From NCBI GenBank assembly GCA_030425705.1, contig JAUHZU010000009.1:62001-126000 (forward strand): a stretch of DNA of 64,000 nt. The letters are read 5' to 3'. Shown piece by piece: positions 42,688 to 52,056 of this stretch. The position numbers and the translations under genes are program-made. Every line of letters starts with the position of its first letter. Within the stretch, counting starts at the first letter, position 1. A model generated the notes under the pieces. That model did no database searches and was not told the origin of the DNA. It was given only the letters and a program-made list of their open reading frames with translations. Source of the DNA: Phycisphaerae bacterium. Lineage in GTDB: Bacteria; Planctomycetota; Phycisphaerae; Phycisphaerales; Phycisphaeraceae.

Positions 42688-44121
42688 CTACTCGGCGGGG
42701 GCAGACGGTTCGACGTAGTCCGGGTTGGGTTGATCAGGGATCGGCGCATCAAGCGCGTCCAGCCAGGCCTCGAGCAACGCGGCGAGTTCGGCATGCTTGT
42801 CCGGCCGGTCCTGCCGCAGGTCGCGCGTCTCGCCGGGATCGTCCGCGAGGTGGTAGAGCGCATCGCGGCCGGTCTCGTAGTCGCGGATGAGTTTCCACGC
42901 GCCAGCCCGGACCACACTGCACGGCGTCGCGCGCCACCCCCGGCGGTGGCTTTCCTCCTGCATCCCGCGGTAGCCCTGCAGATACGCGGGAAAGTGCCAA
43001 TACAGCGCATCGCGTCCGAGTGATGCGCCGCTCTCGCGGAACAGCGGCAGCAGCGAAAGACCGTCTATTGGCTGGCCCTCGGGCATGTGACCGTCCGCCG
43101 CCTCAACCAGCGTCGGGTAGAAGTCCAGCGTGATCACGGGTTCGCTGCTGCGTGTCGCTGCCGCGGTCACGCCCGGCCAACGCACGATCAGCGGGACCCG
43201 GGTGCCGCCTTCGTAAACCATCCCCTTCGAGCCGCGAAGGGGCGCGGCATCGGTCTGCGGGCTCATCCCGCCGTTGTCGGACGTGAAGACCACCAGCGTT
43301 CGGTCGGACAGTTCCAGTTCATCCAGCGCCGCGAGCAGCCGGCCGATGTTCTCGTCCAGCGCCTCGACCATCGCCGCATACCGCGCGTGGGTATGCAGCG
43401 TCCCGGGCGGCCGGGCCTCGGCCGCAGCGAGCAGGTCCGCACGGGGCTGGATCGGCGTGTGCACGGTGTAGTACGGCAGGTAGAGGAAGAACGGCTTGTC
43501 CCGGTTGGCCTGCATGAACCCGATCGCTTCGTGGGTCAGCCGGTCGGTCAGGTACTCGCCCGGTGGCCCGTCCTCCAGGTCGGGGTTGCGGTAGGGGCTG
43601 TGGTAAGACGCCGGATGGCCGCGGTGGTTGCCCCCGATGTTGACATCAAACCCCTGCGCCAGCGGGCCGGCCTCGCCCTCGCCCAGGTGCCACTTGCCGA
43701 AGTGCCCGGTGGTGTAGCCCGCGGACTGGAGCGACTCCGCGAGCGTGACCACCGCGGGGTCGAGCGTCGTGGTGTTCAGCACGGGGACCACGCGGTGTGC
43801 ACTGCTGGGCCCGCGTGCCGAACTGCCGACGGTGTAAACCCCGGTCCGCGGTGCGTACATGCCGGACATCAACGCCGCCCGCGTTGGTGCACAGTTGGCG
43901 CAGTTCGCATACGCGTCGGTAAACAACATCCCCTGCTCGGCCAGGCGGTCAAGGTTAGGCGTCTGATACAGGTCGCTGCCCATACAGCCCAGGTCGCGCC
44001 ACCCCAGGTCGTCGGCAAGGATAAAGACGATGTTCGGACGGCCGGGCGCGTCGTTGGGCAGGCCCTTTTGAGCCGTGGCAGGGGCCGCAAGCAACGCGGA
44101 GAAAAGCAAGAGCAGAGTCAT
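42688..44121 (-). CDS. Cys-type sulfatase, exported
   Basis: A formylglycine-dependent sulfatase of the alkaline phosphatase superfamily, secreted. The start is set at 44121 (477 residues), giving signal peptide TLLLLFSALLAAPATAQ; a GTG at 44136 would add five residues with an Arg. Metal site NIVFILADDLGWRDLGC, active motif NCAPTRAALMSGMYAPRTGV (C-x-P-x-R), TGHFGKWHLG and FTSDNGGMSPQTDAAPLRG. Sulfatases of this type remove sulfate from polysaccharide sugars. It is divergent from the ECF sigma fusion gene, whose regulation may involve it. Confidence 0.9.
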   Translation of the reverse strand: MTLLLLFSALLAAPATAQKGLPNDAPGRPNIVFILADDLGWRDLGCMGSDLYQTPNLDRLAEQGMLFTDAYANCANCAPTRAALMSGMYAPRTGVYTVGSSARGPSSAHRVVPVLNTTTLDPAVVTLAESLQSAGYTTGHFGKWHLGEGEAGPLAQGFDVNIGGNHRGHPASYHSPYRNPDLEDGPPGEYLTDRLTHEAIGFMQANRDKPFFLYLPYYTVHTPIQPRADLLAAAEARPPGTLHTHARYAAMVEALDENIGRLLAALDELELSDRTLVVFTSDNGGMSPQTDAAPLRGSKGMVYEGGTRVPLIVRWPGVTAAATRSSEPVITLDFYPTLVEAADGHMPEGQPIDGLSLLPLFRESGASLGRDALYWHFPAYLQGYRGMQEESHRRGWRATPCSVVRAGAWKLIRDYETGRDALYHLADDPGETRDLRQDRPDKHAELAALLEAWLDALDAPIPDQPNPDYVEPSAPAE

Positions 44122-44619
44122 CACTCGAGCATTCACTCTTCGGTGTCCGTCGGCGAACTCAGCACGGCGGCCCCCCGACGCGCCGATCGTTGTCAGGTCC
44201 TCATCCAAGGGTACGGCGACGTCGGGATCGGGCAGAGGCATCGAGACTCCGGGGAGGGATCGCACCGGCAGGCGATGATGGTATGGCCGGGACCGCCCAA
44301 GACTATCCCCAAACCCGCTCAGAATCCAGACCCCATCGGGGGCCAACACATGTGCGAAACCGGCTGTTCCTGGTCCGCGTCCGGCTCAGTGGTAAAAAAA
44401 GATGAGGATCGATGACAAAACCAGCTCGCGGCGCATCTCATCCATAGTGGGCTCCGCCGTCCATGATCGGCCATGGACAAACTGCTGGGCCGCGTCGGAT
44501 GCGGCGGTTGTCCTGACGGTGAAAGGTGCCCCATGGAGGCGATCATACACGCACCCCCCGTATCGCATGCAGGAACGCCGGCGCGTACCTTAGTGACTCA
44601 CCAAAGGGAAATGCGGTTC
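44122..44619. other. Noncoding region between the sulfatase and the ECF fusion gene
   Basis: About 500 bases between divergent genes. No protein frame with a convincing start and codon pattern is seen. It holds an A-rich patch at 44393-44409 and a perfect 20-bp palindrome (44459-44478). I find no clear sigma70 promoter; an ECF-type promoter cannot be recognised by eye. Confidence 0.6.
44459..44478. promoter_or_regulatory. 20-bp inverted repeat, possible operator
   Basis: GTCCATG ATCGGC CATGGAC, perfect 7-base arms around a six-base centre, about 140 bases before the ECF fusion start. A candidate binding site for the XRE-cupin regulator encoded two genes on, or for another dimeric repressor. 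Confidence 0.45.
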
Positions 44620-46095
44620 ATGGGCATCACACTGGAAGAGGTTGAACGCCGCTGGGAGGAGGTCCGCGCGGGCGTCTCGGCGGGCGATGAATCTCTCGCG
44701 GGCGAGGTGGTGCTGGTGTTGCGGCCAGTGGTTGGCCGTATCTGCAAGGCGGCCGCCGGGCCTGGCGTAGAAGTGGACGATCTGGTGCAGGAGGTGCTGG
44801 ACCGATTCCTGCACCGCGTCGAAACCATCGAACACGGGCTGCTCGGCTGGCTGCGGCAGACCGCAAGAAACCTGGTCGCTGAGCACCACCGGCGACGTAA
44901 GACCCAGGGGCAACATGCCGTCCGCCTGGCGACGTATCAACAGTCCCAGCAGCCCTCACGTATCGCCGAGGCGACTCTGCGAGAGACCGGGGCGGCGTTG
45001 CGTCGTCTGCCCGCCGAGCAACGGGCGTTGATCGTGACCCGCTTTATCGAGGGCAAGCCGCTGCGGGAAATCGCGGCATCAACCGGGTCCTCAATCTCGA
45101 CCTGCACTAGGCGGATCCAGGACGCGCTCGACCAACTTGTTTCGGTGATGCCCAGCGAACTCCAGGCATACGCCGGGCAGGAAGACACCATCGAACCCGC
45201 AGCGCTCGACACGGCCGAGTTGCGGCTCTTCCGCGACCGTGATGACCTGCACGCCGCCGCCCAGTTCGTATCAACGGCCAGCCGGTCTGGCAGCCATGAA
45301 CACGGAGCGTTACCCGGACGGGAACTCATCCGGGTCGGTGTTTTGGTCAGCCACTACGCCACCACAGTCCCGCAATACCAAGGGTTTTTCCAGTCCTTTG
45401 ACCAGGGGGTCGCCACCCTCGGGAACCTCAGCGACCCGCGGATCGAACTGGTCGCGGTAGTCGAACCCGACTCGCTCGTCCGGCCAAACATCGAGGCGGT
45501 CATCCGCGACTACGCTGTGCTCGGCGGCATGCTGGATGTGACAAACACCGAAGACCTGAAGTCGCTCGACCTGATCCACCTTGGCGATACATTCGCGATC
45601 CTCCCTGCAGCGCTCGACGCGATTTGTGAGGCCGTGCGTTCGGGTGTGGGGCTCTACAACGAAGCGTGGCTGGGCTCGGTCGTACCGGGCTATACCGATC
45701 GTCGGGTCCTCGACCTCCTGCTGACCGATCGTGCCGGCAGCTACCACGTCCCCGAAGGGCATGACCTGCCCCGACCCGGGACGGTCCTGCGTGAACACCC
45801 GCTGATCCCCGGCTTGGCGAAAGGGACAAAGCTCACGGTAGGCGGGTGCGGCCCGGTCTATGCCACAAAGCCCGACGCCGTAACAATCATCAAGCAGGAC
45901 GGATACTACCAGTCGAATACTTATCTCGATCGTGGGACGGTCCGCGGCACGATCCCCGTCCTAGTCGCGGGCACGCTCGGTCGAGGGCGTGTCGTTTCCT
46001 TGAACCAGAACACCCCCGAACCCATCGCGACCCACCCCGCCCTCAGGGGGCACTTCATGTCTCATGTCTACAGTTGGCTCACGCGACGTTGCTAG
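44620..46095 (+). CDS. ECF sigma factor fused to a class I glutamine amidotransferase-like (ThuA-type) domain
   Basis: A 491-residue protein from ATG 44620 (GGG ribosome site 11 bases upstream; ATG 44611 is possible). Residues about 20-100 form sigma2 (AGPGVEVDDLVQEVLDRFLH, LGWLRQTARNLVAEHHRRRK), and about 125-180 form sigma4 (RRLPAEQRALIVTRFIEGKP, LREIAASTGSSISTCTRRI). After a linker, about 225-490 is a second domain beginning ELIRVGVLVSHYATTVPQYQ, with LIHLGDTFAILPAALDAICE and VLVAGTLGRGRVVSLNQNT, the profile of a ThuA-type Rossmann domain that lacks the amidotransferase Cys (AVRSGVGLYNEAWLGS at the elbow). Probably a sensor, not an enzyme. Confidence 0.8.
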   Translation: MGITLEEVERRWEEVRAGVSAGDESLAGEVVLVLRPVVGRICKAAAGPGVEVDDLVQEVLDRFLHRVETIEHGLLGWLRQTARNLVAEHHRRRKTQGQHAVRLATYQQSQQPSRIAEATLRETGAALRRLPAEQRALIVTRFIEGKPLREIAASTGSSISTCTRRIQDALDQLVSVMPSELQAYAGQEDTIEPAALDTAELRLFRDRDDLHAAAQFVSTASRSGSHEHGALPGRELIRVGVLVSHYATTVPQYQGFFQSFDQGVATLGNLSDPRIELVAVVEPDSLVRPNIEAVIRDYAVLGGMLDVTNTEDLKSLDLIHLGDTFAILPAALDAICEAVRSGVGLYNEAWLGSVVPGYTDRRVLDLLLTDRAGSYHVPEGHDLPRPGTVLREHPLIPGLAKGTKLTVGGCGPVYATKPDAVTIIKQDGYYQSNTYLDRGTVRGTIPVLVAGTLGRGRVVSLNQNTPEPIATHPALRGHFMSHVYSWLTRRC

Positions 46096-46226
46096 CCCGA
46101 ACGCTTGTAAATCACTACCCAAGATCGCCACACATGATAAAAGCCCGGACCCAATCACGAAGCCGCCGGTCGACGGTCTCCCAAACATCGGCCCAGCCAC
46201 GAAACCCACAACGAGTTCCTAAGAAT

Positions 46227-46823
46227 ATGGTGTCGCCGCAACAAGACAGCGAACCCGAGAGGCAACCCGGACTCGGAATCGGACCACGCCTGCGTTACCA
46301 CCGGAGCCGTCAACGGCTGACGCTTGACCAACTCTCGAAGATGTCAGGCGTATCCAAAGCCATGCTTTCCAACATCGAGCACAGCAAGGCGAACCCGACC
46401 GTTGTCATCCTTCACAAGATCGCCGCTGCGCTCCAATGCTCCCTGATCGATCTCATCGAAGAGCCCTCTCCGGAAAGGTACTTTGCGATCGTGAACGCAG
46501 AATGCCCTGCAGACCCGTCCGGCCGAGACATCCGGCGGTCGGCAAAACGCCTTACACCGCTTCAGCTTGAGAACGAGGTACAGGCCTTTGATGTCGAGTT
46601 GCCCGGACAGACTTGCCGGCGGGTGCCCGCGTTCGAGACCGGCACACTCGCACTCGCGACGGTGATGGTCGGCCGGGTCGAGGTTTCGATCGAAGGCGAT
46701 AAGCGCTGTCTCGTGGCCGGCGATTCGGCCACCTACAGGGCCGACTGTGAACACCTTGTCGCCAACCCGGATTGCGAGCCCGCACGCATCCTCCTCTTTT
46801 TCTCGATGCCCACACTCCACTAA
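46227..46823 (+). CDS. XRE-family regulator with C-terminal cupin domain
   Basis: A 198-residue regulator from ATG 46227. A helix-turn-helix at about residues 18-70 (LRYHRSRQRLTLDQLSKMSG, VSKAMLSNIEHSKANPTVVI) is followed by a cupin at about residues 110-195 (GTLALATVMVGRVEVSIEGD, RCLVAGDSATYRADCEHL). The usual metal His residues are only partly visible. Such proteins bind promoters and sense a small molecule. The start could be further upstream in frame (ATG 46134), which would add a basic extension. It follows the ECF fusion by 131 bases and may be co-expressed. Confidence 0.82.
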   Translation: MVSPQQDSEPERQPGLGIGPRLRYHRSRQRLTLDQLSKMSGVSKAMLSNIEHSKANPTVVILHKIAAALQCSLIDLIEEPSPERYFAIVNAECPADPSGRDIRRSAKRLTPLQLENEVQAFDVELPGQTCRRVPAFETGTLALATVMVGRVEVSIEGDKRCLVAGDSATYRADCEHLVANPDCEPARILLFFSMPTLH

Positions 46824-46981
46824 GCCAGTGGACTGGCTCAAGCGATCCACTAATCGCGTACGCAATGCCTGCCGCAATCGTCTGCTCGGCGTTCCGGTGC
46901 CGTCCATAACGAGTGGCGAGCGACCGGGTAAAAGTTTTCGTTCACAAACTGGGACATGGGGAAATCTAAGTCGGCGCAGAA

Positions 46982-47012
46982 AACAACCCCGGCCAATCGG
47001 CCGGGGCTGTTT
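46982..47012. terminator. Bidirectional hairpin terminator
   Basis: AACAACCCCGGCC and GGCCGGGGCTGTTT pair around AATC. It is followed by TTTT on the minus strand, where it ends the PEP-CTERM gene, and it also lies about 160 bases after the XRE-cupin stop. The stem is strong. Confidence 0.7.
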
Positions 47013-47041
47013 GGAGGAACATGGATCAGAGCCGCAAGGGA

Positions 47042-47827
47042 TCAGGCGCGGCGGCGGCGGAGCACCGCGAGGCCACCCAGGCCGAGCAGCGCCAGCGAGC
47101 CGGGCTCGGGGACGGTTTCGAGCAGGATGTTGTCGAAGTGAGCACCGCCACCAGCACTCGACAGGTCGGAAGGACCGCCAAGACGGATGGCATTAAACCC
47201 ACCGGCCCCAGCGACAGCAGCGACAGATGCCGTCGCGTTGATGTTACCATCGCTGTTCAGGTCGAGCGTAAAGTCGACTGAGTTCGCGCCGACAGTCACC
47301 GTGTAAGTGTGCCAACCCTCGACCGAGGAGTTACCGATGGCGGACCCACTATCGTCAACGATGTTATCGAACGCGACCCAACTGGGGTTTGCGCCACTGC
47401 CATCAAACAGGATCACGCGGTAGCAGTAAAACGCGTTTGCGATCTGGTTGTAGTGCCCCATCTCAATGAGGTTTGAGCCCGCATTGTCGCGGAGGCCGAT
47501 ACTGACACGCTCGTTCCCGCTGGTGCCGTCATCGTAGATCATGCCTGTGAGGAACAGAGGATTGGCATCCGAAGGATTCACGGTCGAGAATGAGAACACG
47601 TTCGTGTTGCCACCGGTAAACGAGCCCGCCGTCCCGGGGTGGAACATGCTTTGACCGGGGTTGCCAAAGGCAGTATCGAGGGTGGCGGTGCCACCATTGG
47701 CCCACACAGCGTTCATCGCGGTCGTATCCGCGTAGGACTCAAAATCTTCATCGATGATCGGTGCGGCGGTAGCCAGACCAGCAATCGAGAGGGCGGCGGT
47801 GGCGGCGATCAGGTGCTTGCGATCCAT
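47042..47827 (-). CDS. PEP-CTERM exported protein
   Basis: A 261-residue secreted protein. The start is at 47827 (strong GGAGGAG ribosome site). Signal peptide KHLIAATAALSIAGLATAA. The mature domain is a beta-sandwich type (FESYADTTAMNAVWANGGTA, WHTYTVTVGANSVDFTLDLN). It ends [18 protein letters not shown] with RRRRA, the PEP-CTERM sorting signal recognised by exosortase: motif, helix and basic tail. No exosortase is in the window. Function probably adhesion or matrix; unknown ligand. It may be linked to the flanking ECF/XRE regulators, without proof. Confidence 0.85.
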   Translation of the reverse strand: MDRKHLIAATAALSIAGLATAAPIIDEDFESYADTTAMNAVWANGGTATLDTAFGNPGQSMFHPGTAGSFTGGNTNVFSFSTVNPSDANPLFLTGMIYDDGTSGNERVSIGLRDNAGSNLIEMGHYNQIANAFYCYRVILFDGSGANPSWVAFDNIVDDSGSAIGNSSVEGWHTYTVTVGANSVDFTLDLNSDGNINATASVAAVAGAGGFNAIRLGGPSDLSSAGGGAHFDNILLETVPEPGSLALLGLGGLAVLRRRRA

Positions 47828-47960
47828 GGGTAACTCCTCCGAGTTGGTGAGAAATCGACTTGACGAACGATTCGGCAAAGCCGACCAAAAACATCAGGTG
47901 AACGCCCGACGCGCTCTACCGGACAAAAGGCCAGCCATCGAGCCAACCTTATATAACAAT

Positions 47961-50385: not shown

Positions 50386-52056
50386 TTAACGCGAGGCCCG
50401 CCAGTGGAAGCCCGCCGACTCGAACCGTTGCCGGCTTTCCTCACTGCGGAGCGCTAAGAACAGCCGCTCCATCAGCTGCTTGTGCTCGGACATCTCCGCG
50501 ATCGACCAGGGCTGGACCGCGCGGGCCAGGCCCGATTCCCCATCCTGGATCTCGACGACTTCCAACTCATCGAGGTTGGCGGCGCTGGACATCACGTTCG
50601 AGCGGTAGACGATCACGGCATCCAGCCCCCCCGCCAGGATCTGGCTGACCAGCGTGGGGCCGACATCCACCTCGACCGACTTCTGTGCCTGGACCCGGCC
50701 GTAGATGTTGTTGAACCGTTCCGAGGAGAGCATCTGCCGCGTCAGCGTGCCCAGCGCCGACTCGGTCGGGTGGCAGACCCCGACGCGGACGCCGGGCTGC
50801 AGCAGGTCTTCGGGCGTGCGGATGTCGTGCGGGTTGCCCTTGGCGACGGCGATGACGATGTCGTTCTCGGAGACAATCGTGCCTTCGCCGAAGATCCGTT
50901 GGCCGCTGTACTCGTGGATCGAGTCGTAGAACTGTACATCGCAGGCCAGATACGCCGAGGGGAACCGGTCCGGCTCAACACCCGACTCCAGGAGCGCCGT
51001 CATCTGTGCGACCAGCTTCCCGCAGCCGGCCCACTGCGGGTCGATGGTCACGCCCTCGCGTTCGCAGAACTCGGCGATCGTGTCCTCAAACACCGCGCGG
51101 AACATCGACCCGCAGTACAACACGATCCGGGGGTCTTCTTCCCACACGTCTCCATCCACGACCTCGAAGCCGTCGCTCTCGAACATCGCGAGCCCCGCGT
51201 CCCGCGCGGACAGGAACCGCGCCAAACGGAGCGCTTCCGTCGGCCGTTCGGTGGTCGCGACCACCGCGATCCCGATCCTGCTGACGTGCTCCCGGAACGC
51301 GGGGTGCGGGTCTTCAATGATCTCGACACCGTCGGTCATCATCGCGATGGTGTCCCAGACCACCGCGGCGTCCAGCGCACCCACGCGTACCGCATCGACC
51401 AGCGCGACGACGGTCTCCTGCTCGGTCTTGCGGCGCTGCTCGATGGCGTCGAGGATGCCCATGTCGCGGGCGATCGCGCGGGTCTTCTTGCCGACCGCGG
51501 CGCCCTCGTTGGCGATACCGAAGTCGATATCACTGGCGGGTTCGGCGAGGTCCGCAAGCGAGGAGATGCCCCGCGGGTTACCCGGCGCGACAATCAGCAC
51601 GGGGCGCTGCACGCCGATCGGGATGACCTCAGCGATCGTGCCGTCCGACCGACCCTGGTCGAGGTAGCTGTCCTCGGCGGTCAGGTAGAGGTCCGGCGCG
51701 GTGCCGAGTTCGACCTCGGTCTTGATCTGGCCGTAAAGGGTGCCCGAGCCGTGGGCGTGGACTTCAACCCGGACGCCGTAGCGTGTTTCGTAGTCTGCAA
51801 GGACCTTTTCGACAGTCGGCCGAACCCCCGCGGCGCAGTACAGGCGGAGCGGGGCTGTGTCCGCACGCTTGTCCTCGGTCTGGATCAGTGGCGCTTCGCC
51901 ACGCAGCGTCAGGACCGCGACCACCAGCACAACAAGCACGGCGGCCGACGACATCGCGAGGATCGCAGCCGCGTTCGCCGCGCCGAAAGCGCGGCGTCGG
52001 ATCAAGCCCAGTGAGCGGTGGACGTCCTGAGGATTCGATGGCGAGAGCAGATTCAC
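50386..52056 (-). CDS. Membrane-anchored tandem substrate-binding protein (two ModA-like domains)
   Basis: A 556-residue protein with GTG start 52056. One N-terminal helix (about 32-52, AILAMSSAAVLVVLVVAVL) anchors two similar periplasmic domains. Domain 1, about residues 68-305: LRLYCAAGVRPTVEKVLADY, AHGSGTLYGQIKTEVELG, TAPDLYLTAEDSYLDQ. Domain 2, about 310-555: IVLYCGSMFRAVFEDTIAEF, GCGKLVAQMTALLESG, PSAYLACDVQFYDS. Both start with the LYC motif and resemble extracellular solute-binding proteins of the ModA type, but the two copies differ, suggesting two ligands or one duplicated site. It lies between a LolD-like ATPase and a ModB-like permease. Confidence 0.82.
   Translation of the reverse strand: MNLLSPSNPQDVHRSLGLIRRRAFGAANAAAILAMSSAAVLVVLVVAVLTLRGEAPLIQTEDKRADTAPLRLYCAAGVRPTVEKVLADYETRYGVRVEVHAHGSGTLYGQIKTEVELGTAPDLYLTAEDSYLDQGRSDGTIAEVIPIGVQRPVLIVAPGNPRGISSLADLAEPASDIDFGIANEGAAVGKKTRAIARDMGILDAIEQRRKTEQETVVALVDAVRVGALDAAVVWDTIAMMTDGVEIIEDPHPAFREHVSRIGIAVVATTERPTEALRLARFLSARDAGLAMFESDGFEVVDGDVWEEDPRIVLYCGSMFRAVFEDTIAEFCEREGVTIDPQWAGCGKLVAQMTALLESGVEPDRFPSAYLACDVQFYDSIHEYSGQRIFGEGTIVSENDIVIAVAKGNPHDIRTPEDLLQPGVRVGVCHPTESALGTLTRQMLSSERFNNIYGRVQAQKSVEVDVGPTLVSQILAGGLDAVIVYRSNVMSSAANLDELEVVEIQDGESGLARAVQPWSIAEMSEHKQLMERLFLALRSEESRQRFESAGFHWRASR

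Follow-up and report, generated by a model that had tools for sequence, protein, structure and literature searches.

The window, a stretch of 64,000 nucleotides from a Phycisphaerae bacterium (contig JAUHZU010000009.1), contains a gene that encodes an ECF sigma factor joined to a predicted glutamine amidotransferase (GATase)-like domain, and a divergent sulfatase gene (Table 1). The fusion gene was translated to a single terminal stop with no internal stops. Its in-frame alternative starts are ATG 44611 and ATG 44473, and the ORF from 44473 encodes 540 aa. Through Pfam searches, we found Sigma70_r2 (E=3.4e-7) and Sigma70_r4_2 (E=3.1e-9) in the fusion protein, both above the curated cut-off, and the NCBIfam sigma70-ECF model TIGR02937 also matched above its cut-off (5.8e-16). 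The sigma-region profile built from the family itself covered residues 19-178 with 176 bits. The protein has the sigma2 and sigma4 regions and lacks sigma1.1 and sigma3, as expected of an ECF sigma factor (group 4 of the sigma-70 family), so the complete sigma2-sigma4 pair that the earlier note had read at the N-terminus is backed by Pfam, NCBIfam and the family profile alike. No model of Pfam or NCBIfam was recognised in the remaining ~300 residues, including the C-terminal domain (C-domain, residues 232-491).

Table 1. Features of the fusion gene and its divergent neighbour, in window positions.
Feature	Position	Strand	Extent or residues	Basis or remark
ECF sigma factor–GATase-like fusion gene	44620..46095	+	491 aa plus stop	possible start also ATG 44611
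Sigma2-sigma4 part	44674..45153	+	residues 19-178	Pfam, family sigma profile; helical in model
Sigma70_r2; Sigma70_r4_2	fusion protein		residues 35-94; residues 124-173	Pfam
Linker	45154..45312	+	residues 179-231	low model confidence, without transmembrane helix
Predicted class I GATase-like / ThuA-like C-terminal domain	45313..46092	+	residues 232-491	3RHT profile, model, Foldseek, VIA
His393 codon (HPLIPGL motif)	45796..45798	+		invariant, 26/26 C-domains
Cys410 codon (GGCGP motif)	45847..45849	+		Cys in 19/19 soluble sigma-fused, 0/7 membrane-type copies
Divergent sulfatase	42688-44349	-		

A missed stop or a frameshift had been named beforehand as what would reduce the fusion to an artefact. 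The GC content at the three codon positions was 0.74/0.47/0.76 in the sigma part, 0.74/0.50/0.74 in the linker and 0.68/0.45/0.76 in the C-domain, which is the same coding pattern, and stops are present in the other reading frames across both the sigma part and the C-domain. Because the frame is open, the coding pattern is shared and the other frames contain stops, a missed stop or frameshift was excluded, and homologous fusions in other genomes confirm that the gene is real.

Of 121 related genomes searched at the protein level, 13 had true C-domain homologues, the window's own genome among them; running a profile over 397 genomes of the class brought in one more (G174). The count of homologues that the earlier note had proposed as a check came to 20 soluble sigma-GATase genes, spread over 14 genomes of Phycisphaerae: one is the gene of the window, and the other 19 lie in 13 further genomes. 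An N-terminal ECF sigma factor was present in every copy with an available, intact 5' part; L008/L062 and L012/L066 are each interrupted by what seems to be a frameshift in the draft assembly, and L017 is truncated at the end of its contig. The identity of the C-domains to the window copy was ~25-42%. The fusion was missing from all four genomes of the same genus, so its distribution is patchy. When genome contigs were scanned with the single C-domain, no relatives were found, and a five-sequence alignment recovered three; tblastn against plasmids and phages gave no C-domain relatives. Two candidates, L019 and L024, were dropped from the C-domain homologues on account of a ligase-like frame and an aldehyde-dehydrogenase-like frame. 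Weak profile matches elsewhere in the class or phylum were set aside as general GATase-fold proteins, and comprised VWA-type membrane proteins, ThuA-like and GATase1-like proteins, and a GH42-like N-terminal part. Tandem copies were found in G009 (three), G038 (strain ZRK32, CP066225.1; four) and G041 (two). At L058:5920-11953 (ZRK32, CP066225.1) and L064:7655-12050, three to four full-length sigma-GATase paralogues lie head to tail, some overlapping or only a few bases apart, an arrangement that is rare among sigma factor genes.

Using the family profile to search solved chains, we obtained one match, 3RHT (E=5e-5 over 160 columns), a 'GATase1-like protein' from Planctomyces limnophilus. The AlphaFold2 model of the C-domain alone, made with 7 sequences, had a mean pLDDT of 83.5 and a pTM of 0.87. 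Its top Foldseek matches were STM3548 (1.4e-7), a ThuA-like protein (1.8e-7) and STM1381 (1.8e-7), together with GH42 beta-galactosidases and 3RHT (1.7e-6), and VIA-align gave Z scores of 16.6 (5XB7), 15.9 (3SOZ), 15.8 (2GK3), 15.0 (4PXY), 14.6 (1T0B) and 14.3 (3RHT). The full-length model agreed with this fold assignment; its pTM was 0.53, residues 182-232 were below pLDDT 50, and the packing of the sigma part against the C-domain is of low certainty. The C-domain thus has the alpha/beta fold of GATase-like proteins, as judged by the models, and resembles the ThuA-like structures 4PXY and 1T0B, and it lacks the catalytic elbow Cys. At the elbow the window copy reads GVGLYNEAWLG (GVGL-[YFL]-N-E-x), no Cys was found there in 18 aligned copies, and the copies share no other nucleophile at this position either (NE, SE, HK, NV and SQ all occur). 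The Pfam ThuA model (PF06283) did not match the window copy and stayed below its cut-off throughout, the best value being E=0.2 in one of 18 members. By structure prediction, the C-domain is a degenerate class I GATase-like / ThuA-like fold. The fold and the missing Cys that the earlier note had read from one sequence hold, the latter family-wide in the alignment.

The solved structures resemble the C-domain to different degrees. 3RHT is also planctomycete and also without the elbow Cys, and has 21% identity to the C-domain, but it is a stand-alone 259-residue chain with no sigma factor and matches the conserved residues of the family only partly. The ThuA-like proteins (1T0B, 4PXY, 4JQS) and STM3548/STM1381 share the fold over ~200 residues (Z 14.6-15.9), whereas their identity is 13-15% and the Pfam ThuA model fails on the C-domain. 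The middle domain of GH42 beta-galactosidases is the best VIA match (5XB7, 204 residues), but with ~10% identity, and there it is a single domain within a glycosidase, whereas the C-domain stands behind a sigma factor.

The same domain was also found on membrane-anchored proteins, which come from other families of the class. Behind a transmembrane helix it is carried by five ECF sigma factors, namely L073 (G013), L076, L080, L169 (G209) and L078 (G228), by the zinc-ribbon Ser/Thr protein kinase L075 (G183; L075:9075-11177), where the GATase-like domain is C-terminal, and by two short membrane anchors, L079 (G213) and L168 (G209); a further copy, L077 (G218), is cut by a contig end. Over 19 residues, hydropathy peaked at 2.06-2.72 in the membrane forms that were measured and have a complete N-terminus, whereas no soluble form exceeded 1.60. 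No free soluble protein or enzyme was present among the strong full-length C-domain matches. As the domain is common to ECF sigma factors and a kinase, and is predicted to be extracytoplasmic when anchored, it behaves like a sensor, and the sensor role suggested in the earlier note gains support from these membrane-anchored proteins. The C-domain most likely serves as the built-in sensor of the sigma factor, and its reuse across outputs is the pattern to be expected of a portable module. We consider evenly balanced the proposal that the C-domains are a so far undescribed family of GATase-like sensors which Phycisphaerae use as such a module, extracytoplasmic behind a membrane helix on ECF sigma factors and on a Ser/Thr kinase, but cytosolic, without the helix and with a Cys in every copy examined in one ECF lineage. 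If it is true, one fold would sense both inside and outside the membrane and serve different output machineries. Other domain combinations were also seen: L141, L142 and L143 (G209) are ECF sigma factors joined to apparent ankyrin-type repeats, and in L144 an ECF sigma region is followed in frame by an apparent ATP-synthase-like domain.

In the tree of sigma domains, 26 C-extended ECF sigma factors formed one clade against 18 other ECF sigma factors (100/99), and within it the 18 soluble fusions formed one clade (99/96). Adjoining this clade were L073 and membrane-anchored ECF sigma factors with other C-terminal regions, including L002 from the window's genome, while the sigma domains of L076 and L078 branched separately. 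The 19 soluble copies were also a single clade in the tree of C-domains (88/93), where six of the remaining seven grouped with each other (96/91). Judged from these trees, the soluble fusion is of single origin, and the sister position suggests a transition between the membrane-anchored and the cytosolic state, the direction of which we infer rather than observe. A single clade for all GATase-fused sigma factors was disfavoured, although the AU test (p 0.058) did not reject it at the 0.05 level; more than one fusion event is thus likely, if unproven. The sigma part of the window copy has a long branch (1.86), so its sigma function may be altered or reduced. The closest sigma relatives of the soluble clade, the membrane-anchored L002 (G000 C16:529467), L146, L147, L149 and L150 of the Phycisphaerae, which come from the same genomes, differ from it in having a transmembrane helix and assorted C-terminal regions unrelated to the C-domain.

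We compared the ORFs around 21 loci all against all, and only the fusion itself was common across genera, with the exception of the synteny between G009 and G038 and a few families shared by two or three loci. The immediate neighbours scanned at the other fusion loci included MmgE/PrpD, a MobA-like transferase, a phosphoribosyltransferase, a radical SAM protein, a subtilase, LysR, aconitase, a histone-deacetylase family protein, PhzF, a class II tRNA synthetase, a beta-eliminating lyase and peptidase M90, which are unrelated housekeeping genes. No anti-sigma factor or conserved partner gene was seen in the locus comparison or among the scanned neighbours; the extra domain is thus conserved across the homologues without a conserved anti-sigma gene. 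By eye, no shared promoter was evident upstream of 14 fusion genes.

We favour, with some reserve, the reading that the protein is a cytosolic signal switch contained in one chain, whose degenerate GATase fold gates the fused sigma part. Its direct basis is the fusion, the fold, the lack of a Cys at the elbow, the evidence that the soluble form arose once, the reuse of the domain and the absence of a conserved anti-sigma or partner gene. The N-terminal sigma2-sigma4 pair would be the output that directs RNA polymerase, and the C-domain, presumably no longer an amidotransferase, would be the on-board sensor that replaces an anti-sigma factor and acts directly on the sigma part. The trigger may be a small cytosolic ligand, perhaps a carbohydrate or nucleotide as the earlier note proposed, or an alteration of the conserved site with His393 and Cys410. 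It would shift the packing of the C-domain on sigma2/sigma4 across the flexible linker, and promoter recognition would be switched; the default state, on or off, and the steps from binding to gating are likewise part of the model and not of the observations.

A more specific version of this switch is a thiol or metal sensor, in which Cys410 and His393 with the nearby H376 and H381 would bind metal or be oxidised and thereby switch the sigma part. In the alignment, all 26 C-domains have His at column 162 (H393), whereas Cys at column 179 (C410) is common to all 19 soluble copies and absent from all seven membrane-type ones. Cys also occupies column 150, which is H381 in the window copy, in 12 of the soluble copies but never outside them. 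The cytosolic sensors may accordingly work through a thiol or a metal, and metal-sensing C-terminal extensions are known in the CorE-type ECF238 (PMC8999054). However, the copies within each group are related, so the split at C410 may reflect one evolutionary event, the remaining Cys/His positions vary, and the Cys may be structural. We therefore regard this version as possible but doubtful.

It is unlikely, in our estimation, that the C-domain serves for assembly or interaction, locking the sigma part into an inactive oligomer or docking it to a partner protein that reads the signal. The middle domain of GH42 enzymes, which is among the best structural matches, is an assembly domain. The C-terminal extensions of ECF42 and ECF57 are also thought to act via protein contacts (PMC8999054). 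Yet no conserved neighbour gene offers itself as the partner, and the invariant E292, R296, D317, H393, C410 and R457 fit a ligand-binding or active-site-like pocket at least equally well.

An active enzyme, with its catalytic residue elsewhere and the sigma part as fused regulator of the same pathway, seems improbable. GATase-fold enzymes of other chemistry (homoserine O-succinyltransferase, dimethylformamidase and N-acyl-phenylalanine acylase) are among the structural matches, so the absent elbow Cys alone is no proof of inactivity, but the variable residues at the elbow speak against this reading, and three different signalling or membrane contexts for one domain would be unusual for an enzyme.

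Sensors fused to the C-terminus of ECF sigma factors are well documented, and ECF41 (SnoaL) and ECF238 (CorE) are precedents for an on-board sensor (PMC8999054). The present fusion is like them in that sigma2-sigma4 is followed by a soluble domain, no anti-sigma factor is adjacent and the whole would act as one protein; unlike them, it has a 260-aa GATase/ThuA-like fold as its extension. A review of ECF sigma factors does not mention a GATase-like extension, and the word 'amidotransferase' is absent from it (PMC8999054). The literature searched, which did not extend to the 2021 ECF reclassification and two planctomycete surveys that may list the group, contained no paper that describes an ECF sigma factor fused to ThuA or to a glutamine amidotransferase. 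The sensor common to ECF and kinase outputs is the more surprising part of the finding. ECF sigma factors are a main pillar of bacterial signalling, and the sensor-fused ones are the least understood. A dead-enzyme fold that senses in the cytosol as well as outside the cell, for sigma factors and for a kinase alike, would be a sensor of a new class, and the C-domain family would annotate planctomycete proteins that are now listed without a C-terminal domain. The fusions would also offer compact switches encoded by one gene each, with up to four of them in natural tandem, and their specificity for ligands and promoters is directly testable.

The earlier note had also suggested a one-component switch for the divergent sulfatase, which we consider very improbable: the two genes are divergent at one locus, that of the window, and both have a low third-position GC (0.82 for the sulfatase and 0.76 for the fusion, against mostly 0.87-0.94 nearby), but three same-genus genomes keep the sulfatase (74% identity in G001, 59% in G003 and 59% in G002) with no such sigma factor nearby or elsewhere, and the scan of genes directly next to the other fusions turned up no sulfatase, so a dedicated link is unsupported. 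The sulfatase, fusion, XRE-cupin and PEP-CTERM genes at 42688-47878 have a third-position GC of 0.72-0.82, whereas most surrounding genes have 0.87-0.94. Together with the patchy distribution of the fusion, the low third-position GC suggests that this block may have been acquired. The genes that flank the locus in the window are far apart in G001 and were not found in G002-G004. Directly 3' of the fusion gene, at 46230-46823 (+), lies an XRE-family regulator with a C-terminal cupin (Pfam HTH_3 2e-10, Cupin_2 4e-6). Further along, the gene at 50386-52056 (-) has, by reading of the sequence, two apparent ModA/TupA-like substrate-binding domains, and is followed by an ABC permease and an ATPase.
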